A stretch of 39,148 nucleotides of DNA, from NCBI GenBank assembly GCA_013334575.1, contig JAAXXG010000009.1:1-39148 (forward strand). Direction: 5' to 3'. This DNA is from Candidatus Moraniibacteriota bacterium (lineage in GTDB: Bacteria; Patescibacteriota; Minisyncoccia; Moranbacterales; UBA1568). Under the pieces are notes generated by a model. It was not told the DNA's origin. It made no database searches and saw nothing but the letters and a program-made list of their open reading frames with translations. This document shows, one piece after another, positions 7,573-29,031 of this stretch. The translations under genes and the position numbers were made by a program. Numbering within the stretch: the first letter of the stretch is position 1; every line of letters begins with the position of its first letter.

Positions 7573-7782
7573 TCACGCGGCGATTCTTTTTTCAGGAGTC
7601 TCGTCTTCCTCTTTGTCTTCCGGGAGGAAATGGCCGCTTTCGGCCGCTTCGAGAGCCTCCTTCAGTTTCGCTTCCTCATCCGGATTCACGTCGAACAAAG
7701 CCGGCTCCTCACTCTTGATATCCTCATGCGCGCCAGGGAGCGTGGCATGGATATCGAAATTCTCAGACATATTCTTATACAT
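7573..7782 (-). CDS. Small acidic protein of unknown function
   Basis: 69 aa from the ATG at 7782, or 65 aa from a second ATG at 7770. Very rich in Glu/Asp/Lys with a predicted amphipathic helix (DEEAKLKEALEAAESG). It starts 19 nt after the stop of the 57-aa gene, so the two are probably co-transcribed. No family recognised. Confidence 0.55.
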   Translation of the reverse strand: MYKNMSENFDIHATLPGAHEDIKSEEPALFDVNPDEEAKLKEALEAAESGHFLPEDKEEDETPEKRIAA

Positions 7783-7801
7783 TCGGATTAGAAACCAATT
7801 C

Positions 7802-7975
7802 CTATAGCAGACCCATGTTCCCGAACAGGGTCAGCGTGATGACCGGCATGAGCGCGATCAGGAACGCGAACGCCATCTCCTGCTGCTCTTGTGCCCTTGT
7901 GCAGTGTTCGCACACATGAGACGCTTCCGTCTCCTTATGCACCTGCCCCGACGTCACCATGGAATCCTTTTCCAT
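7802..7975 (-). CDS. 57-aa small membrane protein with CxxC (not in ORF track)
   Basis: Reading the minus strand from the ATG at 7975 gives a 57-aa protein ending in TAG. The N-terminal half is hydrophilic with VCEHC (a CxxC pair), and the C-terminal half is one hydrophobic helix (MAFAFLIALMPVITLTLF). An alternative ATG at 7960 has AAGGA just upstream and would give 52 aa. It lies directly beyond the CRISPR array, behind a promoter at 8065-8093, and is first of three small co-directional genes. Too short for the ORF track. Coding status rests on the coherent soluble-then-membrane pattern and operon position. The CxxC may bind metal or form a disulphide. Function unknown. Confidence 0.55.
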   Translation of the reverse strand: MEKDSMVTSGQVHKETEASHVCEHCTRAQEQQEMAFAFLIALMPVITLTLFGNMGLL

Positions 7976-8019
7976 AGTTTTTTTGTCTTACGGTTTACTT
8001 TCTTGGCTCTTCAAAAGGA

Positions 8020-8051
8020 AAAACGGGCTCCCATATCTGGGCACCCGTTTT
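8020..8051 (-). terminator. Hairpin beyond the array: array terminator or 5'UTR hairpin
   Basis: The minus strand reads AAAACGGG-tg-CCC-loop-GGG-ag-CCCGTTTT followed by TTCCTTTTG. It lies 57 nt past the distal repeat and could end the array transcript. It also lies just downstream of the promoter at 8065-8093, so it would form the first structure of the small-gene mRNA. Confidence 0.6.
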
Positions 8052-8064
8052 CCACTTCAGGTAT

Positions 8065-8093
8065 AGTATAGCGTATTTTACGAAGAAAAGCAA
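8065..8093 (-). promoter_or_regulatory. Promoter of the small-gene operon
   Basis: Minus strand TTGCTT, 17-nt spacer, TATACT. It sits between the distal end of the CRISPR array and the 57-aa gene, with the predicted start near 8058. Confidence 0.6.
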
Positions 8094-8107
8094 GTTCAAA
8101 CTAAACC

Positions 8108-10006
8108 CTGCCAAACAGTAGAAATCTTATAGGCGCATTCGGGAAAGAAGCGTAAGTTCTTCGAATAAGATCTACAACAGTAGAAATCTTATAGGCGCAT
8201 TCGGGCAGTCGTTTTCCAGGGCGGGCCATAGATCTACAACAGTAGAAATCTTATAGGCGCATTCGGGCCGGCACTATCTCTTCCGATGCCGTCATCTACA
8301 ACAGTAGAAATCTTATAGGCGCATTCGGGCCTCTCCGCTCATGCCGGGAGGGCTATCTACAACAGTAGAAATCTTATAGGCGCATTCGGGTCAGAAGGTT
8401 CCAAAATGGAACAGACTATCTACAACAGTAGAAATCTTATAGGCGCATTCGGGGCTTTTTTAGTCCTTCAACCTTGCTTATCTACAACAGTAGAAATCTT
8501 ATAGGCGCATTCGGGCAAATACGCTTGGACAGGACCAGATATCTACAACAGTAGAAATCTTATAGGCGCATTCGGGGAAACACGCAACGATGGAGCGCCA
8601 ACATCTACAACAGTAGAAATCTTATAGGCGCATTCGGGACGCGTTACGGCGTACAAAACGCGCCATCTACAACAGTAGAAATCTTATAGGCGCATTCGGG
8701 CTTCCGCTCGTAGGGAATACCATCAACATCTACAACAGTAGAAATCTTATAGGCGCATTCGGGCATCTCAGGGAGGCGAGGATGCAGGAATCTACAACAG
8801 TAGAAATCTTATAGGCGCATTCGGGGGCTAACAATTACTCGTAGCAGTAGTATCTACAACAGTAGAAATCTTATAGGCGCATTCGGGATGAATCGCATTC
8901 GTCCTCTTTGAAGAATCTACAACAGTAGAAATCTTATAGGCGCATTCGGGGAACGCGAACTCGACGATCTTCGTGAATCTACAACAGTAGAAATCTTATA
9001 GGCGCATTCGGGGGATGCCGAGATACAGGGCAGTTGTAATCTACAACAGTAGAAATCTTATAGGCGCATTCGGGAGGCGGCTCTTTGAACTACAAAACCG
9101 ATCTACAACAGTAGAAATCTTATAGGCGCATTCGGGTATTCGAGCGCCGTCGCGAACAAACAATCTACAACAGTAGAAATCTTATAGGCGCATTCGGGAA
9201 ATATGCTGTCAAGACTTTTATCAGATCTACAACAGTAGAAATCTTATAGGCGCATTCGGGAATCTTGAGATAGCGAAATCAGAGCTATCTACAACAGTAG
9301 AAATCTTATAGGCGCATTCGGGGGATATGTCGATCAGTCAAATCTCGTATCTACAACAGTAGAAATCTTATAGGCGCATTCGGGGGATATGTCGATCAGT
9401 CAAATCTCGTATCTACAACAGTAGAAATCTTATAGGCGCATTCGGGGAGGGGATGGCGCTTGCCACCCTACTCATCTACAACAGTAGAAATCTTATAGGC
9501 GCATTCGGGGGTTCTCCTACCGGGAACGCCGTCATATCTACAACAGTAGAAATCTTATAGGCGCATTCGGGAAAATAAGCACGCCGCGAGTACAGTCATC
9601 TACAACAGTAGAAATCTTATAGGCGCATTCGGGTACTTATCGTTCAAGCGAGCTATCTCTATCTACAACAGTAGAAATCTTATAGGCGCATTCGGGATGT
9701 TTTATTCCTGCTCAGTAGGAATATCTACAACAGTAGAAATCTTATAGGCGCATTCGGGCCGGGATTTGTCCTGTATAGATTCGAATCTACAACAGTAGAA
9801 ATCTTATAGGCGCATTCGGGATATGTACACAATGCAAGGAAGAAGTGATCTACAACAGTAGAAATCTTATAGGCGCATTCGGGGCGTCTGGCACGTGATC
9901 GTCTTTTTATCTACAACAGTAGAAATCTTATAGGCGCATTCGGGGATGGTCACCCAGTCGCCGCTCTGGTATCTACAACAGTAGAAATCTTATAGGCGCA
10001 TTCGGG
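8108..10006 (-). CRISPR. Type V-A CRISPR array, 31 repeats / 30 spacers
   Basis: 36-nt repeats at a 61-63-nt period, with spacers of 25-27 nt. In transcript sense (minus strand) each repeat ends in AGATTTCTACTGTTGTAGAT, the Cas12a pseudoknot/stem element (TCTAC-TGTT-GTAGA), so the spacer is 3' of it as required for Cas12a crRNAs. The copies I read are identical except the last (8108-8143), where the six distal bases are CTGCCA in plus sense instead of ATCTAC. This decayed terminal repeat fixes the distal end at 8.1 kb and the leader end at 10.0 kb, next to cas2. Two adjacent spacers (9323-9348 and 9385-9410) are identical. No spacer obviously matches the rest of this window by eye. Confidence 0.98.
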
Positions 10007-10156
10007 AGGTCCGATGCTTTATTCAAGCCAAAAGTATGCAAATAGCTCACGAAGGAGGCTACGAACTCTTGGCTTGAATAAGCCATTCCGATTTCTCGGA
10101 CACTCGGGTTTTTGCGCGAAAATGTTCCCATAAAGATTTTCACCGTTCGGGAATTT
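10007..10156 (-). promoter_or_regulatory. CRISPR leader with large inverted repeat
   Basis: 150 nt between cas2 and the first repeat. Ten bases from the repeat it holds an inverted repeat: left arm 10016-10031 (GCTTTATTCAAGCCAA) and right arm 10069-10083 (TTGGCTTGAATAAGC), with a 37-nt loop and one bulged T. A second short hairpin (CCGA-GAAA-TCGG on the minus strand) lies at 10088-10099. A weak promoter-like TTGAAA...CTTTAT is present near 10125-10160. Leaders normally carry the array promoter and the integrase-anchoring signal; which role the hairpin plays is not known. Confidence 0.7.
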
Positions 10157-12040: not shown

Positions 12041-15000
12041 TTACTTTATGACCTCCGCATCCCAATCAGAATCCGAGATAAAAAGATTCGGATACTTTTC
12101 ACCTTTTCCAAGTTTACCGTTCTTTTTCCGATGTTCGAAATCGGAAATCCGACTGAGCATCATTCGCCCCTTTCGCGCGATATTGTACGCGCCGTTCGCA
12201 TCTCCATTCCATTCGTGTTTTTTCCCATCGGATCCGATAAACCCCTCGTCGCTTCTGAAATCGCACGCCGGACAATGAATCATATCTCGCTCGTCACCGT
12301 CAGCCGTGGTCTCCGTATATCGCATCCGAGTCAGAAGATTGATAGTCGCAAGAAGATTCCTATAGAAGTCCGACTTCACGAGGCCTTCCTTACGCGAAAG
12401 GGTTTCTACAGACAAGTCGTGACCGGACCGAGGATCGATTCCCACGCCACGAAACAGTTCATCCAAACGTTCCGTCACGTCTATCCGATTGGAAACGCTC
12501 TTTCCATTCATCCGACTCCAAACATACCGAACCGCTCTGTGCGTAGAGAGTTTCTCCGGCGCATAGTCGATCTCGTACGAGCCTCGTTTGTTCTTTCGTG
12601 ATTCATGCAAGCCCTTGTGTGAAATCTCATATCCCTCGTCGTTTCTGACGATTGATACCTTCCCGAGATATATCCGAGCCTGTTCCTCATTCGCATACGC
12701 TTCCCACATACCCGGCTTCCTCCGCCAGCCACAGACCGGACAGGTCGTGGACGTGAAACCGGCTCTGGTATACAACATGATACCGACCTGTAATTTCTTC
12801 TCGATATCCTGATAATTCGAGACGAGCGGGGTCAATTGAAGCCCGTTTACCGGGTGACCCGGCTTTTCCGGATCAGTCTCGGATTTATCGACAAGATAGT
12901 TCAGTTTCTTCGCCAGCGCGAGCTCAAACTTCTGATATACCTGCCGCTCGATCTTCTGCCTGCCACGCTTGAATCCCGTATTCAGATCCTCCAAGACGAT
13001 GACCGCATTATTCTGAAGTGCAAGATCGGCGACCTTCCTGACAACCTGCGACACATAACCGTTCTTCAGTTCCTTTATCGTCCCGATGGTCTTCCATTCC
13101 TCTCGGGCAATCTTCCGTTCCGCTTCCCGCTTCTCCAATTTGGAGAGATAATCCGTCGGTTCGGCCTTTCCGTTTTCCTGTATCTCATTGAATGATCCCG
13201 ATTCCCGAAGCACGCCATCAGGCCCTATCAGCGAATAATATACGAGATGCTTCTCGCCGCGATCGAGACCAAGAACACAGGGCTTATCATTGTTCGACGC
13301 TAAAATCTCATTTGTTTTTTCATTGAACCTTCGGTGGTGCAACTCCTTGAAGTTCTCACTAATGGAATCATTCAACGCGTTCAGAATAATCGGACAATGA
13401 AACAGATAGGCATCTTCCGTATACCGCTTTTTCGCGATAACCATGTACTCTTTCGCATTGACTGTCTTTCTTTTCTCCTCTTTAACTTCAATGGATGCAG
13501 GCCGAAAAAATATCGCACCACCGCCACTCAATTTCAGACTCTCGTACTCCGCATTTTCTTGTGAAAAAAGATTTTTCCAGTACAGCGCTTGAAGGTCGCC
13601 TTTCGTTTTCTTTTCCACCCCAATATCTTTGGAGCAGATTTCAAATAGGTAAAGAAAGACATCTTTATCCTTCTTTTTTGTCGAATATACGCCACGTTCA
13701 ACGAATTCGTCAGAAACGGAATCCCAAGAAATCGAATAGAGTGTCAGCGCGGAAACATCTTTCGCAAGCTGCTTCGGGTCCGCATAGTTCTTATCTATGA
13801 TTAACTCGAGTTCCGGAAAAGTAATCGCGTATTTTCGCAACAAGGTTTTCACTTTTCCAATGAGAGTGGAGGCATCTAATCTTTCAGCATCCGTCTTATA
13901 TTTTACTCCATACTCCCCGAGATACACCGAGCCGTACAAAGTCTGTGATTTCAATTGTCGATAATCCATCTTTTCGTATGACCCGCTTGCGGATGATTCC
14001 GGATACTTATTCGCATCGAACAATCGCGGATCGGTCGTAATACCGAGATAGTATCGCGCAGATTTACGAAAGATATATGCATGGAATTGAGCGTTTCCTT
14101 TCGGGCTTTCTTGCCATCCGCCAAGCAGATTTCCTTCGTCAAAGGTCATCAGTATCTTCTCCTCACTCCAAGGTTTCTTCGTAAGATAGTTACGAACTGC
14201 ATCATACGTTGCGCCGAGAGAATATTCGTTGGAATAATCTTCCAGTACGGAATAGAAATCCTGATTACGATCGAGGTGATCAATATCCTTTGACGTGAAA
14301 TACCGCACCATCCGATGAAAGCGTAGAAGGGAGTCGAGATATTCCTTGATAATCTGCACGTGCGTTTCCCGCGCTTCTCCCTCTCCGAGCTTGCCTGACT
14401 TCAGGAATGATGAAATCCGCTCCGAAGTCTCTCTATGACCGGGAATCCTCTTTCCCGACACAACATCGGCAAAACCCTTTTCGGCATCGATGAATTGCTG
14501 TAAGAAAACAATGGAAAATATACGATAGTTTTCCTTGTGCGAAATTTCTTCATCTTTCCCTACGACGCCGCCTCGGACTGCGCCTGAGACGACGAAATCC
14601 TTCCACAACGATATTCCTTCATTCTTCTCGTTCTCCAAGGCGCGCCGAAAATCAGCGATTGAGACCGCTTTCGGCAAAGCATATTCTTCCTCGGATTCAT
14701 CGCTCTTTTTTCTCTTGTTGCCGAGTCCGCCAGAGCCAAGCAACGCGTTTCTTCCGTCATCCGTCAGATACTTGTGCAACAGCGTATTCAAGGCGACCTT
14801 TGAGAAATAAACCGACTTCTGCAATACTTCATCATTCAATCCGCGCCGAACGATGTTTTCGAGCGTCCGGATCCTCGTATCACCGCCATTCCCGAGTCGC
14901 TCCGATTCCGCTTCGAAGTACAATTTCTCCAGCCGACCGACGAGATCATCATCCGATTCTATCGCATCCAGAAACAGAGGCCTGTCACGCTGTCCAAGTA

Positions 15001-15871
15001 TCTGATTGTGAAGTGTAAGAAGAAATGTCGCGCCGCAATTCGGATGACTCTGCCTATATTCATTGATTCTCTTGTTCATCGCGCCGACCGACTCGTTGTA
15101 TCCTTCGATTCCTTCCTGCAACAAGACACCGGGGTACGATTTCGGGTTCATCATCTTCTTTTCAGAGTCCGTCAATCGGAAGCCAGGGTATTCGCTGAAA
15201 TGCTCAAACGCGAATATATTTGCAAAATACCGCTCCAGGTTCACGTCTACCATCCGGTATGCCAGAGCGGTGTTTTCATTGCCTCCGGAATATAGATTCT
15301 TTCTCGACTGATTGTATCCGTCGAGATATCCGAAAAACCTGTCGAATTTCGATATCGTCTCAACCTGCTCCGGATCCGAAAATTTCCGTTTCAGTAATTC
15401 AATAATCTTTTTCTCCGAAAGGATATCCGGATTCCGTTTCTTGAATTCGATATCTGAATAGGTTTCTTCCGCCCACTTCTTCGCCGTTTCATTGAAACGC
15501 GCCACGATTCCGAACCTCAGATCACTATACCGCCCACCTTTCCCATACCTGCCACGCAACTGTTCACTTTTTTTACTCTTGGCATTCTTATCGGTTTCCT
15601 GTTTCCATTTCTTCCATTCCTCATACGCATCGGAAAAATATTTCGAATCGAAATCCAAAAGCGACTCCCGGATAAATTCACGATGAAGATCGTCAAGGAG
15701 TGCCTTTATTTTCAAATATGCCTCGTACACTTCCTTGTCCTTCGGAACGATTCCGTTTTTCTCCAACAATTCTTTTGTCTTTTCTGTCGGCTCCAGACGA
15801 AACCGCAATGTCTTCGAAAGCGCATACTTCCTCGTGAACTCATCGAAAACGGAACTCTTATGCTGACCCAT
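12041..15871 (-). CDS. cas12a: Cas12a (Cpf1) effector nuclease with four-Cys Nuc domain
   Basis: The crRNA-guided DNA nuclease of type V-A. 1276 aa from the ATG at 15871; the ORF track begins at a TTG nine codons earlier. The N-terminus (FTRKYALSKTLRFRLEP) is the family signature. WED/PI parts are seen in LLGGWQESPKGN and LQALYWKNLFS. RuvC residues, numbered from the ATG: D870 (LGLDRGEKH), E961 (VLEDLNTGFK) and D1224 (NGDANGAYNIA). A normal bridge helix (REEWKTIGTIKELKNGY) lies between RuvC-I and II, which argues against Cas12a2. R1184 (RMRY) matches the Nuc arginine. Unusual points are C1044/C1047 (CPVCGWRR) and C1200/C1203 (CPACDF), an intact zinc-ribbon pattern, and no His where the pre-crRNA-cleaving His lies in Fn/As Cas12a. 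No Shine-Dalgarno is visible. The matching repeats are just downstream. Confidence 0.97.
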   Translation of the reverse strand: MGQHKSSVFDEFTRKYALSKTLRFRLEPTEKTKELLEKNGIVPKDKEVYEAYLKIKALLDDLHREFIRESLLDFDSKYFSDAYEEWKKWKQETDKNAKSKKSEQLRGRYGKGGRYSDLRFGIVARFNETAKKWAEETYSDIEFKKRNPDILSEKKIIELLKRKFSDPEQVETISKFDRFFGYLDGYNQSRKNLYSGGNENTALAYRMVDVNLERYFANIFAFEHFSEYPGFRLTDSEKKMMNPKSYPGVLLQEGIEGYNESVGAMNKRINEYRQSHPNCGATFLLTLHNQILGQRDRPLFLDAIESDDDLVGRLEKLYFEAESERLGNGGDTRIRTLENIVRRGLNDEVLQKSVYFSKVALNTLLHKYLTDDGRNALLGSGGLGNKRKKSDESEEEYALPKAVSIADFRRALENEKNEGISLWKDFVVSGAVRGGVVGKDEEISHKENYRIFSIVFLQQFIDAEKGFADVVSGKRIPGHRETSERISSFLKSGKLGEGEARETHVQIIKEYLDSLLRFHRMVRYFTSKDIDHLDRNQDFYSVLEDYSNEYSLGATYDAVRNYLTKKPWSEEKILMTFDEGNLLGGWQESPKGNAQFHAYIFRKSARYYLGITTDPRLFDANKYPESSASGSYEKMDYRQLKSQTLYGSVYLGEYGVKYKTDAERLDASTLIGKVKTLLRKYAITFPELELIIDKNYADPKQLAKDVSALTLYSISWDSVSDEFVERGVYSTKKKDKDVFLYLFEICSKDIGVEKKTKGDLQALYWKNLFSQENAEYESLKLSGGGAIFFRPASIEVKEEKRKTVNAKEYMVIAKKRYTEDAYLFHCPIILNALNDSISENFKELHHRRFNEKTNEILASNNDKPCVLGLDRGEKHLVYYSLIGPDGVLRESGSFNEIQENGKAEPTDYLSKLEKREAERKIAREEWKTIGTIKELKNGYVSQVVRKVADLALQNNAVIVLEDLNTGFKRGRQKIERQVYQKFELALAKKLNYLVDKSETDPEKPGHPVNGLQLTPLVSNYQDIEKKLQVGIMLYTRAGFTSTTCPVCGWRRKPGMWEAYANEEQARIYLGKVSIVRNDEGYEISHKGLHESRKNKRGSYEIDYAPEKLSTHRAVRYVWSRMNGKSVSNRIDVTERLDELFRGVGIDPRSGHDLSVETLSRKEGLVKSDFYRNLLATINLLTRMRYTETTADGDERDMIHCPACDFRSDEGFIGSDGKKHEWNGDANGAYNIARKGRMMLSRISDFEHRKKNGKLGKGEKYPNLFISDSDWDAEVIK

Positions 15872-16081
15872 AGGAATCGTACAAGGGTTACGCTTCAATC
15901 ATCCCACCGAACAACCTGCCCTGCAAGCGGTTTTTTCGATTTCGAAATTTTTTTTCGGCTTATATGAGCCATGAAAATTGACGTTTTCCGATTTCAACGG
16001 AAACGAGGCGCGGACTGGAATGTCTCCAGCAGGTCTTCCGCGGCGTCCGGGAGACTCCGCCGTGCGTCGGACGGAATATGA
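15872..16081 (-). promoter_or_regulatory. cas12a upstream region, weak promoter candidate
   Basis: About 210 nt without a gene. A poor promoter candidate on the minus strand is TTGCAG, 17 nt, GATGAT, ending about 30 nt before the ATG. A run of A/T (AAAAAAAATTTCGAAATCGAAAAAA on the minus strand, split by C/G) lies at 15935-15959. The small ORFs on both strands look like shadows. Promoter call is tentative. Confidence 0.3.
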
Positions 16082-22539: not shown

Positions 22540-22735
22540 GTCATTCCCGCGAAGGCGGGAATCCTCGCCGTCTCCGCTCCGACGCGCCCCTCCGCTACCC
22601 GGAAATCCCTTCCATGATAGCGGAAATCGCGGAATACCGCCAAGAATCGACAAACAAACCCTCTTGTCATTCCCGCGAAGACAGGAATCCAAGCCGCTTC
22701 GATAGATCGAAGATTCCCGCCTTCGCGGGAATGAC
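22540..22735. repeat. Two GTCATTCCCGCGAAGGCGGGAAT-type elements
   Basis: A left-end copy at about 22540-22561 (TCATTCCCGCGAAGGCGGGA) and a full inverted element at 22666-22735 beginning GTCATTCCCGCGAAG and ending TTCGCGGGAATGAC. The same family forms the 71-bp element at 27979-28049. Confidence 0.75.
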
Positions 22736-23008: not shown

Positions 23009-23278
23009 ATGCCGATCAAGAAGAACGCCAAGAAGTACATGCGCGTCACCGAAAAGAAGACCGCGCGCAACAAAGCCGTGAAGGGAGTCCTGAAAGGCGC
23101 CGTAAAGGCGGCCCGCGAAGCGATCGTCGCCGGATCGGTCGACACCGCCAAGGAGTCGTTCAAGAAGGCGCAGAAAGCCATCGACAAGGCGGTCGCGAAG
23201 GGCATCATGAAGAAGAATACCGCCGCCCGCCGCAAGTCCCGTCTCAACTCCGCCATCAAGAAGGTCGCCGCGAAGTAG
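23009..23278 (+). CDS. rpsT: 30S ribosomal protein S20
   Basis: 89 aa, normal for S20, a 16S rRNA-binding protein of the small subunit. Lys/Arg/Ala-rich helices with the family pattern: MPIKKNAKKYMRVTEKKTAR at the N-terminus, AIVAGSVDTAKESFKKAQKA, IDKAVAKGIMKKNTAARRKS and LNSAIKK at the end. The start lies 30 nt after a MITE-like element. It is a single-gene unit with a terminator about 92 nt after the stop. Confidence 0.97.
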   Translation: MPIKKNAKKYMRVTEKKTARNKAVKGVLKGAVKAAREAIVAGSVDTAKESFKKAQKAIDKAVAKGIMKKNTAARRKSRLNSAIKKVAAK

Positions 23279-23465: not shown

Positions 23466-23498
23466 TATGAAAACGGCGAAGAGTTTCTCCGCCGTTTT
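23466..23498 (-). terminator. Terminator of the radical SAM operon
   Basis: AAAACGGCG/CGCCGTTTT arms with an 11-nt loop, 18 nt past the stop at 23516; the minus strand ends in TTTTC. Confidence 0.75.
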
Positions 23499-23515: not shown

Positions 23516-24847
23516 TCAGATTCTCTGGGAATGATCGTTTATCTCCCGCATCTCGGCTCTGAGCTCCTGAGCCAGGATACCATCAAGATATGCGGGAGGC
23601 ACCGTATACAGAAGGCGCTCCCACGGCTCATCAGGGTATTTTTCTCTCCAGAATGGAAACAATTCCGATCCAGGGACAGGGGAATTGAAGAAGACATTTA
23701 CAACAATCCCCGCCTCTTTCAGCTCCTTCGCGAAGCGGATCGTCTCCCGAATGGAACTTTCCTTCTCCAGAACAAGCACGCCGGACGTGTCGAATGCAGC
23801 TATGCCGATCTGAAGAAACGCCTCCAGCTGCAATCTGCCTTCCTTATATGCCCCGAACTTACGGAGCAATTCCAGACATTCGTCATGTCGATGTGGCTTC
23901 CGGATCAGACGAAGCGACTCATCGGAAGCGCTCTCGAACGGCAAGCCAATCCTGACATATGTACCGCCACGAAGCGCCTCTTCCAGCCAACCGAGAAACA
24001 AGGGATTGCGCATGCTCCGAACGGTCAGCCCGTTCGGAAACTCGACCCCTTCGAAGCCTAAATCGATTATCTGTCCGAGAAGAGATACCTTAGACCGGAC
24101 ATCCGCTTCCGCCCAGCCGAGAAAGTTGTCATCCTCTAACTGAAGGCAGCGGACCCCGGAACATCGTAACGCCAGCATCTCTTTCATGACCGACGACCCT
24201 GACCGTTCCCGGCGAATCATATTCCTACTCGGACAGAAAAGACATGTCCCGCCACATCCGACCGACGTCGTTATCTGACCCGCCGGCTCCACGATCGGCC
24301 GACCGGAATGAAAACGGCCGATTTCCCGATAGCGTTCGGAATACCCGGAAAATATCTCCCGATCAGGAAGGGTATCGATCGAATAGGATCGCCATGGGAG
24401 ACTGACATTCATCGGACTTCCGAATGAGAGCGCCGTACTGATTTCACACTTACGCAATGATGGCGGCAGATACTTCCGCGGGACGGTAGCGATACCGGGT
24501 CCGCCGAGAATTATTCTCAAAGCCATCTTTTCTCGAGATAACAAATCGACAAGCCGTTCCGCCACACCGAGTTCGGCCGACACTCCAACGTGTATCCCGA
24601 GAATTTCCGGCGACCGGAGACGGATCCGTTCGACAAGTTCGGAAAGGGGCAATCCGAAAGAAAACCAGCTAGCATCCTTTACATGATGTTCCAGCAGAAC
24701 AGAGCCATGTTCCACCCGGGCGTCGAGATATTCCACCCGGCATTCGAGATATGCGGATAGATATGCCGCCCAGTGCGGCGGATATATGCGGATCTGGTCG
24801 GAGCCCGATATGACCGGAATATCGATCAGTAACAGTTTTGTATTCAT
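23516..24847 (-). CDS. B12-binding-type radical SAM enzyme
   Basis: 443 aa. The N-terminal ~160 residues look like a Rossmann/cobalamin-binding-type domain (MNTKLLLIDIPVISGSDQIR, LGIHVGVSAELG, IILGGPGIATVP). The radical SAM cluster motif CxxxCxxC follows in TTSVGCGGTCLFCPSRN, then LEDDNFLGW and GLPFESASDESLRLIRKP, typical of the radical SAM barrel. The classic DxHxxG cobalamin motif is not evident, so B12 use is uncertain. It is the last gene of a four-gene run with a methyltransferase, a 52-aa peptide and a SPASM enzyme, so a role in peptide modification (for example C-methylation) is inferred, not shown. ATG at 24847, 61 nt after the methyltransferase. Confidence 0.85.
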   Translation of the reverse strand: MNTKLLLIDIPVISGSDQIRIYPPHWAAYLSAYLECRVEYLDARVEHGSVLLEHHVKDASWFSFGLPLSELVERIRLRSPEILGIHVGVSAELGVAERLVDLLSREKMALRIILGGPGIATVPRKYLPPSLRKCEISTALSFGSPMNVSLPWRSYSIDTLPDREIFSGYSERYREIGRFHSGRPIVEPAGQITTSVGCGGTCLFCPSRNMIRRERSGSSVMKEMLALRCSGVRCLQLEDDNFLGWAEADVRSKVSLLGQIIDLGFEGVEFPNGLTVRSMRNPLFLGWLEEALRGGTYVRIGLPFESASDESLRLIRKPHRHDECLELLRKFGAYKEGRLQLEAFLQIGIAAFDTSGVLVLEKESSIRETIRFAKELKEAGIVVNVFFNSPVPGSELFPFWREKYPDEPWERLLYTVPPAYLDGILAQELRAEMREINDHSQRI

Positions 24848-24908
24848 GTTCTGAAGATGTTTCGACGCGACCCGACGGTTACCGGATCACGTCATCGTTT
24901 CAAAAGAC

Positions 24909-25553
24909 TCATCTGATAGCCGTTACGAGATATCCGATCGGGGTCGGACTGACGATCTCGTACCGGGAAAACGAAGCGGACTGGAACAGTTGCGTGAGCT
25001 CCCGATAGGTGAATCGTCGCGAATACAGGCCGGCTTCCAGATAAACCTCGTTTCCGGTCTCCTTCCTGATCGCGAGTCCGAGCCGCGCATAGTTCGCGAC
25101 CTGTGCCGAACGCGCCCGCTCGGAATACACGCTTACCAGGATCCGCCCTCCAAGCCGACAGACGCGGAACATCTCGCGAAGCACGTCCCGCTCGATACCG
25201 GGCATATTGCTCATCGTATGATTAAGACAAAGCACCGTATCGAAAGACTCGTCAGGAAAACGGAGCGCATCGGCACGCATGAGATACGTCTCAACCGCTC
25301 TCCCGCGCAGCCGTTCCCGCGCCTTCCGAAGCGCCAAGCGACTGAAATCGATACCGACGATGCGACTAGCTCCGTGAAGCATTTCCAGGATACGACCATC
25401 GCCGCAACCGACTTCCAGCGTATCGCCGAATGAGCCGCTTCGCGAGCGTATCATCCCGTCCTCCTGTTCAACGCACTCCGCGATGGCGGCGGGCGGACCC
25501 GAAAGCATCGACCCGAAATCGAAGGTCTCGTAGAATTTTCTGACATCATTCAT
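24909..25553 (-). CDS. Class I SAM-dependent methyltransferase
   Basis: 214 aa with a Rossmann-type methyltransferase core: DTLEVGCGDGRILEML (motif I), IVGIDFSRLALRKARE (post I), LMRADALRFPDESFDTVLCLN (motifs II/III) and CRLGGRILVSVYS. It resembles the Methyltransf_11 group, whose substrates are varied. ATG at 25553 has GGAGGACAAC upstream. It is separated from the upstream 52-aa peptide gene by an intrinsic terminator, so it is probably expressed by read-through. Probable tailoring enzyme of the peptide cluster (inference). Confidence 0.88.
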   Translation of the reverse strand: MNDVRKFYETFDFGSMLSGPPAAIAECVEQEDGMIRSRSGSFGDTLEVGCGDGRILEMLHGASRIVGIDFSRLALRKARERLRGRAVETYLMRADALRFPDESFDTVLCLNHTMSNMPGIERDVLREMFRVCRLGGRILVSVYSERARSAQVANYARLGLAIRKETGNEVYLEAGLYSRRFTYRELTQLFQSASFSRYEIVSPTPIGYLVTAIR

Positions 25554-25564
25554 GTTGTCCTCCG

Positions 25565-25598
25565 AAAAAAGAGGAGCGGCCTCCGATGGATCCGCTCC
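25565..25598 (-). terminator. Terminator/attenuator between peptide gene and methyltransferase
   Basis: Minus strand GGAGCGG-12 nt-CCGCTCC followed by TCTTTTTT. It lies 24 nt after the 52-aa gene stop and its T tract ends 12 nt before the methyltransferase ATG, so it can limit transcription of the downstream enzymes. Confidence 0.85.
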
Positions 25599-25621
25599 GT
25601 TTTCGTTTTTTTGGTAATCGC

Positions 25622-25780
25622 TTATCGCTGCGTCTCTACGGCGATCGTGGAGACATACATCGAGTAGACGCCTTCGGTGGGATTACCGGAAAGCATCCGC
25701 CTGACCCGCCTTGCAAGACGGCGTTCGCGTTGCCTGCGTTCGGTCGGGTGTAACCGCGACACGGTTATCATGATGATCAT
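25622..25780 (-). CDS. Candidate RiPP precursor peptide (52 aa)
   Basis: Start ATG at 25780, with AGGAGG 5 nt upstream, giving 52 aa; the ORF track begins 15 codons earlier and overlaps the SPASM gene. The N-terminal 30 residues are extremely basic (HPTERRQRERRLARRVRRML), like a leader, and the C-terminal 22 (SGNPTEGVYSMYVSTIAVET, then QR) are neutral, rich in small, aromatic and hydroxyl residues and free of Cys, like a core. It is sandwiched between a radical SAM/SPASM enzyme and a methyltransferase. It is followed directly by a terminator, so it should be more abundant than the downstream enzymes. No known precursor family recognised. It could instead be an unrelated small basic protein. 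Confidence 0.55.
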   Translation of the reverse strand: MIIMITVSRLHPTERRQRERRLARRVRRMLSGNPTEGVYSMYVSTIAVETQR

Positions 25781-25794
25781 CCCTGCCTCCTTGT

Positions 25795-26886
25795 TTATGT
25801 GTTGTTCATTGTTCGAAAGACGCACTCACGCATGCATCCGCCGGAAGTCAGCTTGTGCATCGGGATCGTACAGAGTCTTTCCTCTTCGCACCCCCGGCAT
25901 GTGTCCGGCCGGGGCGTATTACGGAATACCCCGTATCTCTCTTCCCAGACCTCGGCCACCCGATCGACCCGGAAATTTCCCTGAACGAACGAGCGATCGA
26001 TATGGGCACAGCCTGAGAACGATCCGTCATACAGGATGCCGAGACAGGTCTTGCCGGCGATACAGCTCCACACGTAAGGCCGCACCAACCCCTCCCATCC
26101 AGCCCCGAGCCATCCGATACAGCCAAGCTCGATCTGAACGACATTCTCTTCCCCGGACGTATCCACTCCCCGCTCATAGACGAACTCGACAAGCGCACGC
26201 AGCTCCTCACCGTTCAGCGTCCGAGATTCCTCCGCACGTCCGACGTTCTCGATCGGGAGCAAACGCCACCGATGCGGATTCAGATCACGGATGACGGACC
26301 AGAGTTCGCCGAGCGACCCGATATTCTCCGGCGTCACGACGGTCGTCACGGTTATGAAGAACTCTTCGAGCGACCCGAGCAGCAATCTGGCGAGCTCGAC
26401 GACGCTTCGGAAATGTCCCCGCTCGCCGCGAAGGGAATCGTGCAGGGGTTCCGGACCGTCGAGATCGAGACCGATGCCTCGCACTCCGCAGGAAAACAAC
26501 TCCGGTATCATCTCGCGATGAGAGGCGAGATATCGCCCGTTCGTCTGTATCGTGCTGACCCATCCGAACGCGTCACGAACGAAGCCGAGCACGTCCAGAA
26601 GGTCGCCTCGCAGGAACGGCTCACCGCCGGTCAAGGTGAGATACCTGAATCCGGACAGGTCGATCGTCTGGGCGATTTCCCGGAAGAGTCCCTTTATCTC
26701 GCCGGTAGAGAGTTCCTGCGACGCCACCATGCGTTCGGACGGAGAGCCGCAGTGAGAACAATGCATGTCGCACCGCCTCGTCGTCTCCCACTGGATGATT
26801 TCCAACGGATGTGAGACGAATTTCCGCTCAAGATTCATCCTCCAGAGAGAGAACTCCTCCCGAGATACCGTTTCTTTCGCTTTCAT
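25795..26886 (-). CDS. Radical SAM/SPASM peptide-maturase-like enzyme
   Basis: 363 aa. The radical SAM 4Fe-4S motif is CxxxCxxC in TTRRCDMHCSHCGSP, followed by LTLTGGEPFLRGD (GGE SAM-binding motif) and GIGLDLDGPEPLHDSLRG. The C-terminus is a SPASM-type auxiliary cluster domain: SCIAGK, then DGSFSGCAHIDRSFVQGNFR, DTCRGCEEERLC and SGGCMREC. Such enzymes install thioether, cyclophane, epimer or similar modifications on ribosomal peptides. The stop lies 14 nt before the 52-aa peptide ATG. Own promoter at 26925-26952. Substrate assignment is inferred from the neighbour. Confidence 0.9.
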   Translation of the reverse strand: MKAKETVSREEFSLWRMNLERKFVSHPLEIIQWETTRRCDMHCSHCGSPSERMVASQELSTGEIKGLFREIAQTIDLSGFRYLTLTGGEPFLRGDLLDVLGFVRDAFGWVSTIQTNGRYLASHREMIPELFSCGVRGIGLDLDGPEPLHDSLRGERGHFRSVVELARLLLGSLEEFFITVTTVVTPENIGSLGELWSVIRDLNPHRWRLLPIENVGRAEESRTLNGEELRALVEFVYERGVDTSGEENVVQIELGCIGWLGAGWEGLVRPYVWSCIAGKTCLGILYDGSFSGCAHIDRSFVQGNFRVDRVAEVWEERYGVFRNTPRPDTCRGCEEERLCTIPMHKLTSGGCMRECVFRTMNNT

Positions 26887-26924
26887 TCTTTCTGATGGTT
26901 TATGGTTTTCAAAGATCCGCTCTT

Positions 26925-26952
26925 ACTATACCCCCACGATCTTTTTATTCAA
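26925..26952 (-). promoter_or_regulatory. Promoter of the radical SAM operon
   Basis: Minus strand TTGAAT, 16-nt spacer, TATAGT, 39 nt before the SPASM ATG. The motif CGACTAATGAG (26960-26970) sits directly upstream of the -35 and recurs at 27062-27072 by the divergent promoter. Confidence 0.65.
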
Positions 26953-27011
26953 CAAGTATCGACTAATGAGAAAAATATTTCGAGCGATATTTCGAATATT
27001 TGGCTTGTTTA

Positions 27012-27040
27012 TTTACTTTTTTAGCAATCCATGCTATACT
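27012..27040 (+). promoter_or_regulatory. Promoter of the TrmB-type regulator
   Basis: TTTACT, 17-nt spacer, with extended -10 TGC-TATACT at 27035-27040. An inverted repeat TAGTCG-N8-CGACTA (27048-27067) covers the predicted start site and is a candidate operator. The region 26887-27196 holds no gene. Confidence 0.65.
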
Positions 27041-27071
27041 TGAATAGTAGTCGGTTTTGTACGACTAATGA

Positions 27072-27168
27072 GTCATTTCGAACCGCCAACAGGCGGTGAA
27101 GCGATCCAGCAAGACATGTATACCGGTCCTGGATTGCCACGCACTCGAAGACTCGCGCTCGCAATGAC
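27072..27168. repeat. GTCAT...ATGAC element in the regulator 5' leader
   Basis: 97 bp beginning GTCATTTCGAACCGCC and ending CTCGCAATGAC, lying between promoter and start codon of the regulator. Its internal sequence (CCTGGATTGCCACGCACTCG) matches the element at 21837-21894 in the other orientation. Confidence 0.65.
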
Positions 27169-27196
27169 ATCTACAAGAGCGCCTGAATCCACCCCT

Positions 27197-27967
27197 ATGA
27201 ACATACGTGAAGTCCTGCGGAAGTCTGGAATAGACGGAAAAAAGTCGGACGTGTACCTTGCCTGTCTGGAAACAGGCAAGGCGACCGCGTACGCGATTGC
27301 GAAACGGACGGGCCTGCGTCGGCCGACCGTATATGACATCCTCGACCGTCTCATGAAGGAAGGCCTTGTCTACCGGTCCGTCGCCAAGGGGACGCGTTAT
27401 TATTCCCCCGCAGACCCGGAAGCGCTCCTCGAGCGGACCAGGCGGCAAGGACGCGAGCTCGCCGCGGTCATGCCGGAACTCCAGGCGCTCTACACCGGCC
27501 CCAAGGTGAAACCGGTCATCCGGCATTTCGAAGGGAAGGACGGTATCGCAGAAATGCACGAAGACAGCCTTCGGTCGCTCCGCAAAGGCGACGAGATCCT
27601 CGGGTACGTCGGCGAGGACATCATGAAGTATCTTCCGGCATATGCCGAAGACTACGTCAGGCGACGCGTTGAAAAAGGCATCGTCTTTCGCGGTATCTAC
27701 AAGCGAAGCCGAGACTTCGACCCGTACATGGAGAAGAATCGCGAACAGCTCCGAATCGGCATCGTCCTCCCTGAAGCGGCATTTCCGCTTGGCAACGAGA
27801 CAAACATCTACGGCAACAAAGTCGCCGTCGCCAACTATGGGAACGAGATGTTCGGCATGCTCATCGAATCCAAGCAATTCGCCGACTCCCAGCGCGCCAT
27901 CTTCGAACTCGCCTGGAAAGGCGCAACGGCCGAAAAAACACACGAAAACCATCGGAAACCGTCGTAA
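27197..27967 (+). CDS. TrmB-family transcriptional regulator
   Basis: 256 aa from the ATG at 27197 (MNIREVLRKSGIDGKKSDVY); the 43 earlier residues of the ORF track translate a repeat element. The N-terminal winged helix reads GKATAYAIAKRTGLRRPTVYDILDRLMKEGLVYR, followed by GTRYYSPADPEALLE as the wing. A C-terminal domain (HFEGKDGIAEMHEDSLR...) is of the type common in archaeal and CPR TrmB-like proteins, with an unknown ligand. It diverges from the radical SAM operon and shares the CGACTAATGAG motif region with it, so it is a candidate regulator of that operon (inference). A second family member lies at 38112. Confidence 0.85.
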   Translation: MNIREVLRKSGIDGKKSDVYLACLETGKATAYAIAKRTGLRRPTVYDILDRLMKEGLVYRSVAKGTRYYSPADPEALLERTRRQGRELAAVMPELQALYTGPKVKPVIRHFEGKDGIAEMHEDSLRSLRKGDEILGYVGEDIMKYLPAYAEDYVRRRVEKGIVFRGIYKRSRDFDPYMEKNREQLRIGIVLPEAAFPLGNETNIYGNKVAVANYGNEMFGMLIESKQFADSQRAIFELAWKGATAEKTHENHRKPS

Positions 27968-27978
27968 TCCCTTACCTC

Positions 27979-28049
27979 GTCATTCCCGCGAAGGCGGGAA
28001 TCTCGACGAAGACCGTTAAAAATAAGATTCCCGCCTTCGCGGGAATGAC
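27979..28049. repeat. 71-bp perfect inverted-repeat element
   Basis: 25-bp perfect arms (GTCATTCCCGCGAAGGCGGG... and its complement) around a 21-nt centre. It lies between convergent genes and may also act as a transcription terminator. Same family as 22540-22735. Confidence 0.85.
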
Positions 28050-28077: not shown

Positions 28078-29031
28078 TTATAACTTCTCCACGAAAAGCG
28101 TGAGGGCGAGTTCGGGGTCGATCTTTCCCGATTTCATGTCCGCATCGAGGTCGGCAAGAAGCCGAAGGGCCCGCTTGAGCCGTGGAAGCGGGAACGCCCC
28201 CATTCTCGCGACAAGCTTCCCTGCCGTGTACGGCTTCATTCCGGTCGCGCGGGCGATATCGTCCGCCCTCGTATTCCCGCGGTCGAACTCGCCGCGGACC
28301 CGGAACAGTTCGCGGATCTGCCACGCGAGGAGCCCGAACAGTTTCTGCACGCCGCCGGAATCGGCACGCGCTTCCCGTAACAGCAACTCGAGTGCGCGGC
28401 CGCGATTTCCGGCAACGAGCGCGTCGAGTGCCGCGAAGACCTTCTCCTGCGGCTGTTCACGGACAAACGTCTCCACATCGGCACGACTCACCTCGCCTTC
28501 CCCCTTGAAAAGCGCGACCTTCGCGGCTTCCGAGGAAAGACGGGCCGAATCCGTGCCGCACGCCGCGATAAGAAACGAGAGCGCATCGCGCGAGAACGAG
28601 ACCGACGGCGACACGGCCATTGCCTCTTTCCGGGCGAACGCCTCCGCCTCGCGCGGGGGCAGTTCGTCGAACGATTCCGTCTTCCCGGCCTGTTTCCGAA
28701 GAAACGCGTACGGTTCGTCCTTGGCCTTGGGCGCGACCGTCTGCGAAAAGACGACCGACACGTCGTCTCCGAGACCCTTAAGCGTCTCCCTGACTTTCTT
28801 TGCCTCATCAGTCGGCAAAGAGAGCGCCTCTCGGACATCAAGCAGCGTCTTCGTCGAGAACAGTCCCGACGTACCGGCCTCGGCGATCGCGGCAGCGACG
28901 GAGCCGGGTTTTTCGAAGGCGTCGATGACCGTCACCGTGCCATCCGGATACTTGGAAAGGAACCCGAGTCTCAATTCGGTACGGCGTCTCACGAGTCGGA
29001 ACCTGTCTTTTCCGGTAAGCAATACGATCAT
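28078..29031 (-). CDS. holA: DNA polymerase III delta subunit
   Basis: 317 aa, usual for the clamp-loader delta subunit that opens the beta clamp. N-terminal MIVLLTGKDRFRLVRRRTEL, a middle KKVRETLKGLGDDVSVVFSQ region, SFLIAACGTDSARLSSEAAKVAL, then EKVFAALDALVAGNRGRALELL and the C-terminal LLAWQIRELFRVR...KPYTAGKLVARMG collar region match the HolA family. Starts 10 nt after a strong terminator of the upstream gene, so its promoter is unclear; it may rely on read-through. Confident family call. Confidence 0.92.
   Translation of the reverse strand: MIVLLTGKDRFRLVRRRTELRLGFLSKYPDGTVTVIDAFEKPGSVAAAIAEAGTSGLFSTKTLLDVREALSLPTDEAKKVRETLKGLGDDVSVVFSQTVAPKAKDEPYAFLRKQAGKTESFDELPPREAEAFARKEAMAVSPSVSFSRDALSFLIAACGTDSARLSSEAAKVALFKGEGEVSRADVETFVREQPQEKVFAALDALVAGNRGRALELLLREARADSGGVQKLFGLLAWQIRELFRVRGEFDRGNTRADDIARATGMKPYTAGKLVARMGAFPLPRLKRALRLLADLDADMKSGKIDPELALTLFVEKL

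Follow-up and report, generated by a model that had tools for sequence, protein, structure and literature searches.

The window analysed here is a stretch of 39,148 nucleotides (nt) from a Candidatus Moraniibacteriota bacterium (GenBank assembly GCA_013334575.1, contig JAAXXG010000009.1), which forms contig 16 in a 99%-complete genome of 1.13 Mb; sampled members of the phylum have genomes of about 0.5-1.3 Mb. Between rpsT (23009-23278) and holA (28078-29031) lies a cassette of five genes, four on the minus strand and a divergent one on the plus strand, coding for a radical S-adenosylmethionine (SAM) enzyme with a SPASM domain, a peptide of 52 amino acids (aa), a class I methyltransferase, a B12-binding-type radical SAM protein and a TrmB-family regulator. 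All five had been named in a preliminary description of this DNA, and open reading frame (ORF) calls together with Pfam domain matches confirmed each of them in its place. We consider it likely that the locus is a cassette of the type that makes ribosomally synthesized and post-translationally modified peptides (RiPPs) by radical SAM chemistry, in which the SPASM enzyme modifies the tyrosine-containing segment GVYSMYV of the peptide and the methyltransferase decorates it.

The 52-codon gene begins 14 nt past the stop codon of the SPASM gene and has the ribosome-binding site ascribed to it earlier, an AAGGAGG Shine-Dalgarno sequence located 5 nt upstream of its ATG. A counterpart of 58 aa (L014:2565-2741, sequence MMVIIDGKSIQLAPEAVERIAGKMKELSETVAKALDADPTAGVYSMYVAFPAIEQVRA) is encoded next to the homologous SPASM gene of G753, a genome of the same order and a different family. 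The two peptides align locally with a score of 73, compared with a maximum of 47 in 20,000 shuffles, and have the segment PTxGVYSMYV in common, while most of their other residues differ. Seven of the nine identical codons in this segment are changed synonymously, the remaining two being ATG and one TAT, and across the 11-codon core the differences at first, second and third codon positions number 1, 1 and 7. Because the identical residues of the tail use mostly synonymously changed codons, the frame is under selection at the protein level and the tiny gene is real. Thus, both a conserved small ORF beside a homologous SPASM gene and purifying selection on the 52-aa frame, on which the earlier proposal of a peptide precursor depended, were found.

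The SPASM protein is matched by the Pfam models Radical_SAM (59.0 bits) and SPASM (33.4 bits), both over the cut-off, and its CxxxCxxC motif reads CDMHCSHC. It is 54% identical to the G753 homologue (E = 1.6e-129 in the order-level search). The AlphaFold model of the protein has a predicted local distance difference test score (pLDDT) of 78 and a predicted template modelling score (pTM) of 0.82, with low confidence in the C-terminal part, and its top matches in the PDB are maturases of the SkfB, SuiB and CteB type. This predicted proximity to RiPP maturases argues for a peptide-modifying role of the enzyme.

Relatives of the cassette were searched for in the family (28 genomes), the order (131 genomes), nested draws from the class and the phylum, and the orders and classes around distant matches, and G753 was the sole close relative in all of these sets. 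It has the same gene order as the window, namely a divergent trmB-type gene, the SPASM gene, the peptide gene and the methyltransferase gene, and these four constitute the core common to both families. A short genetically encoded peptide is therefore linked to a peptide-modifying enzyme class, and the pairing is kept in the window and in G753, as had been expected for a RiPP-type SPASM locus. No SPASM gene of this kind was present in the 27 other genomes of the family, no relatives were found in viral contigs, and a scan of a genome collection with a single window sequence returned only stretches of 26% identity.

We propose that the SPASM enzyme, having recognised the 52-aa peptide, would modify it within GVYSMYV by means of a 5'-deoxyadenosyl radical. 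The linked methyltransferase would methylate the same peptide, either after or before the SPASM step. The individual parts of this proposal differ in strength: that the peptide is the substrate of the SPASM enzyme is very likely, that the modified site falls within GVYSMYV is assumed with reasonable confidence, and that the peptide is also a target of the methyltransferase is a preference held with less assurance. The last of these enzymes scores 65.2 bits on the Pfam model Methyltransf_25 and is 43% identical to the G753 methyltransferase encoded at the same position, with the stretch VRKFYETFDF near the N-terminus identical in both. For the B12-type radical SAM protein, the chance that it acts on the peptide is in our view slightly below even; if it does, it would probably add a further C-methyl group, in the window genome only. 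This protein scores 32.3 bits on Radical_SAM, over the cut-off, and 28.6 bits on the B12-binding model, just under the cut-off of 32.1, and contains the motif CGGTCLFC; its single-sequence fold reached a pLDDT of 34 and was not interpreted. It had been counted among the core parts of the cassette, a view that did not hold up, as the G753 cassette lacks a counterpart and the rest of that genome, which is 74% complete, gave no match. A search of 367 other class genomes likewise gave no relative at E<=1e-20, and none were found in plasmids. Since it is without a counterpart in G753 and in the class genomes, the gene is an accessory of the window lineage.

The divergent TrmB-family regulator (55.5 bits on Pfam TrmB) probably controls the cassette. 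It is 58% identical to the TrmB protein of the G753 cassette (315 bits), whereas the best of the many TrmB paralogues in five congeners reaches 131 bits and at most 39% identity, and because the two cassette proteins match so much better than the congener paralogues, the regulator travels with the cassette. Its start is better placed at 27197 than at 27068, where it had been put before, given the start of the G753 homologue and the promoter-like site upstream. A piece of the DNA on the TrmB side of the divergent region is alike in both genomes (score 33, shuffle maximum 27); the number of promoter-like matches is near the chance expectation. A hairpin lies in the gap between the peptide and methyltransferase genes, with a fold z-score of -2.4 in the window and of -5.2 at the equivalent place in G753. 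The terminator scan, too, picked out a 5-pair part of it, and a T run follows the hairpin in the window and not in G753. Such a hairpin may favour the expression of enzyme and peptide over that of the downstream genes. Around the G753 cassette, four TrmB-family genes are found within 9 kb (L017:2715-11534), and between its TrmB and SPASM genes is a hydrophobic frame of 63 aa (L014:1242-1433) that has a good ribosome-binding site and no evident counterpart in the window.

Table 1. Features of the cassette and its surroundings, by position in the window.
Feature	Position	Strand	Basis
Radical SAM/SPASM protein, 363 aa; proposed peptide maturase	25795..26886	-	Pfam, NCBIfam, G753 homologue, AlphaFold model
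Proposed precursor peptide, 52 aa, MIIMITVSRLHPTERRQRERRLARRVRRMLSGNPTEGVYSMYVSTIAVETQR; conserved PTxGVYSMYV	25622..25780	-	Shine-Dalgarno sequence, G753 counterpart
Class I SAM-dependent methyltransferase, 214 aa; conserved core member	24909..25553	-	Methyltransf_25, G753 homologue
B12-binding-type radical SAM protein, 443 aa, resembling class B methylases; accessory	23516..24847	-	Pfam
TrmB-family transcriptional regulator, 256 aa; divergent	27197..27967	+	Pfam TrmB, G753 homologue
RNA hairpin followed by T run in peptide-methyltransferase gap; possible partial terminator	25570..25605	-	Fold z-score, terminator scan
Terminator-like hairpin of 13 pairs at end of minus-strand operon	23470..23498	-	Terminator scan
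Intergenic region between the divergent genes; promoter-like sites facing both ways (minus 26952-26925; plus 27012-27040)	26887..27196	.	Promoter scan
Copies of the element CCCGCCTTCGCGGGAATGAC, inverted pairs	22540-22559, 22666-22685, 22716-22735, 27979-27998, 28030-28049		Repeat search

Several observations weigh against the proposed peptide-maturation cassette. The GVYSMYV cassette is known from no more than two genomes, which is thin support for a family. The N-terminal halves of the two peptides are dissimilar beyond a few positions, the core contains no motif that has been established for any characterised enzyme, and neither a recognition-element domain in the cassette proteins (Pfam and NCBIfam) nor an adjoining peptidase or exporter gene was found. 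In the tree, the window and G753 SPASM proteins form a fully supported pair on a long stem; the branch that joins this pair to the TIGR04133 group has weak support.

The peptide has no match among Pfam, NCBIfam and PHROG models, and an Arg-rich leader, which had been regarded as a signature, is seen in the window only. As the G753 leader is a different sequence of mixed charge, richness in Arg is not a defining feature. The heptamer GVYSMYV alone is not diagnostic either, as its DNA has nine matches in viral contigs, which are due to chance and fall in very short or unrelated frames.

Among described systems, the best family match of the SPASM protein is TIGR04133, a SPASM family found together with a putative lipoprotein in Bacteroidota and Treponema, and in both cases the enzyme is encoded beside a small partner with a tyrosine motif. 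However, the scores of 186 bits for the window protein and 205 bits for the G753 homologue are both far under the cut-off of 425 bits, a methyltransferase and a divergent TrmB gene are linked in the window, and the enzyme pair forms a separate, long-stemmed branch. The window partner also differs from the lipoprotein in its downstream position and in having no lipobox, no signal peptide (by inspection) and no YG motif. Maturases of the SkfB, SuiB and CteB type, which act in sporulation killing factor, streptide and thermocellin-type systems, respectively, resemble the enzyme in fold. These three carry N-terminal domains that bind the peptide, and their targets are Cys or Lys-Trp, whereas the window enzyme has no such domain, is only about 16-19% identical to them and is paired with a peptide without Cys or Trp. 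Sactipeptides and ranthipeptides use core Cys residues for their thioether links; since Cys occurs in neither the window nor the G753 peptide, thioether chemistry within the peptide is ruled out, and so is a lipobox. The peptides with a GDL motif (DUF1843) and their maturase TIGR03913 likewise combine short Cys-free peptides with tyrosine motifs (KPYGVA and PMYMAT), but these are DUF1843 proteins with the motif at the N-terminus and no evident relation to the GVYSMYV peptide, and the window enzyme scores 93 bits on TIGR03913 (cut-off 592). YSM and YVS/YVA fit the loose aromatic-x-x pattern of three-residue cyclophanes (triceptides); none of the best-scoring NCBIfam models listed for the SPASM protein was recognised as a triceptide maturase. 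The cassette does not show the tested defining features of any known RiPP family.

The cassette had been called new, and this stands insofar as no family model or paper that we found describes it. It has to be qualified in that the SPASM protein lies near TIGR04133, a family already associated with small partner proteins; a literature search on TIGR04133 or its lipoprotein partner returned no paper. A SPASM enzyme next to a short peptide is a known kind of arrangement; as far as searched, the novelty lies in the precursor, in the lineage of the enzyme and in the set of genes. The 52-residue peptide probably gives rise to a modified peptide of a new kind. More tentatively, one might speculate that the cassette represents a new RiPP class, with a Tyr-x-x-Tyr core, a leader without a recognition element, a divergent SPASM lineage and an undescribed tyrosine-directed reaction (such as a cross-link or a backbone rearrangement), which would be followed by methylation and, in one lineage, by B12-dependent C-methylation; the wider TIGR04133-like group would then be tyrosine-directed as well. 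Few known biosynthetic clusters occur in small-genome bacteria of the Candidate Phyla Radiation (CPR) type. The published RiPP predictions that we found for CPR bacteria concern graspetides, which come from the same broad kind of bacteria but are modified by ATP-grasp ligases and not by radical SAM enzymes (PMC8939145). If our reading is true, two radical SAM enzymes and a methyltransferase acting on a 52-codon peptide, in a compact cassette that appears to be mobile, would offer a testable way into the chemistry that these bacteria use for signalling, as cofactors or in competition.

The alternative with most in its favour, although we consider it unlikely, is that the peptide gives rise to a small tyrosine-derived redox cofactor and not to an exported product; PqqA and MftA are precursors of this kind, for pyrroloquinoline quinone (PQQ) and mycofactocin, respectively. 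The core is centred on tyrosine, SPASM enzymes include PqqE and MftC, PqqE is among the structural matches of the model, and the locus lacks a signal peptide, an exporter and neighbours of the bacteriocin type. However, the Glu/Tyr pair of PqqA is not kept (the position is E in the window and A in G753), and the C-terminal Val-Tyr of MftA is unmatched, as GVY is internal, 13 residues short of the terminus. In addition, the PqqE and MftC models reach only about 55-61 bits, and no gene similar to PqqB/C/D or MftB/D/E adjoins.

It is less probable still that the enzyme carries out a splicease-type reaction at tyrosine, yielding a spliceotide. The window SPASM protein scores 79 bits on TIGR04103 (nif11-class maturase 3; cut-off 725), which we take to be the family of the splicease PlpX, and scores for this family range over 79-97 bits. 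In the tree, TIGR04103 groups with TIGR03913 and not with the window enzyme. Like the window enzyme as proposed here, PlpX is a SPASM enzyme acting at a tyrosine of a ribosomal precursor, PlpA (PMC10533398, PMC11002830). Published splicease tags contain LYGLP (PMC10533398), and small partners of distant relatives of the window enzyme carry YGxP motifs (MYGSP, KYGPP, CYGMP, EYGSP, EYGTP). In contrast, both cores read VYSMYV, with Tyr-Ser and Tyr-Val and no Xaa-Tyr-Gly, the window has no Nif11 or nitrile-hydratase leader, and no gene for a PlpY-like recognition element adjoins; the missing Xaa-Tyr-Gly and recognition-element gene argue against a spliceotide reaction.

Some SPASM enzymes have short accessory proteins, such as the PlpY-type recognition elements (PMC11002830), and the peptide could in the same way be an unmodified partner, a chaperone or subunit, of the enzymes. 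We regard this as quite improbable, since conservation is limited to a short C-terminal segment and the N-terminal half is variable, a pattern that fits a substrate better than a folded domain, and no family model matches the peptide. Attenuation leaders usually contain a stretch in which codons for a single amino acid follow one another. A regulatory leader of this type between the SPASM and methyltransferase genes, to which the hairpin behind the short frame in both genomes could point, was rejected as very improbable because the tail is conserved as protein and not as codons, no run of codons for the same amino acid is present and the upstream gene belongs to a peptide-modifying enzyme class.

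Beyond the proposed cassette, TIGR04133 is the best model not only for the G753 protein but also for six other sampled SPASM proteins of the phylum. At five of these loci (L005, L006, L007, L008 and L018) a short ORF lies just upstream of the SPASM gene, and the short membrane or secreted partners contain MYGSP, EYGVTYTP, KYGPP and AYGIQ, IYAPP, and TYMAG; the membrane proteins neighbouring the sixth (L019) have no clear YG motif. Likewise, small lipoproteins adjoin the TIGR04133-type genes of Treponema, Parabacteroides and Phocaeicola, with the motifs EYGSP, EYGTP and CYGMP. We count these pairs of a SPASM gene and a small protein in favour of the proposed cassette. The tyrosine motifs were picked by eye, and the distant SPASM matches in G253, G130 and G221, which have long branches and no evident small partner, did not enter the argument from pairing. 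From these sequences, a tyrosine-centred target is a plausible common theme across SPASM families, and the orphan TIGR04133-type enzymes may be tyrosine-directed modifiers of surface lipoproteins. Such a pattern across several uncharacterised SPASM families would make orphan enzymes directly testable. The YGxP motifs CYGMP, EYGSP, EYGTP and MYGSP of the small partners (L010:2628-3017, L011:2075-2917, L012:3511-3999 and L018:4264-4518) resemble the LYGLP of splicease tags, and in the Treponema partner the tyrosine stands right behind an apparent lipobox Cys. In G509, a transposase gene separates the YG-containing short ORF, with KYGPP and AYGIQ, from the SPASM gene (L007:172-1495), and this pair may therefore be broken. 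G803 has a second SPASM-like gene with related membrane-protein frames beside it (L019:3496-5823), located between two genes for apparent 2-oxoacid:ferredoxin oxidoreductase subunits.

The congener G004 keeps murE, femAB, ruvA, rpsT, holA, the DUF3048 gene and the next large gene in the same order, and has about 0.5 kb with an unrelated 103-aa frame at the rpsT-holA junction in place of the cassette. Because of this junction, the cassette must have been gained or lost as a block. Copies of the 20-bp element CCCGCCTTCGCGGGAATGAC flank the cassette on both sides as inverted pairs, with zero expected by chance. Elsewhere in the window, two regions have a low guanine-plus-cytosine content of about 45%, compared with roughly 57% for the window: one without an ORF of at least 100 aa (7718-10112) and one that contains an ORF of 1285 aa (12041-15898).

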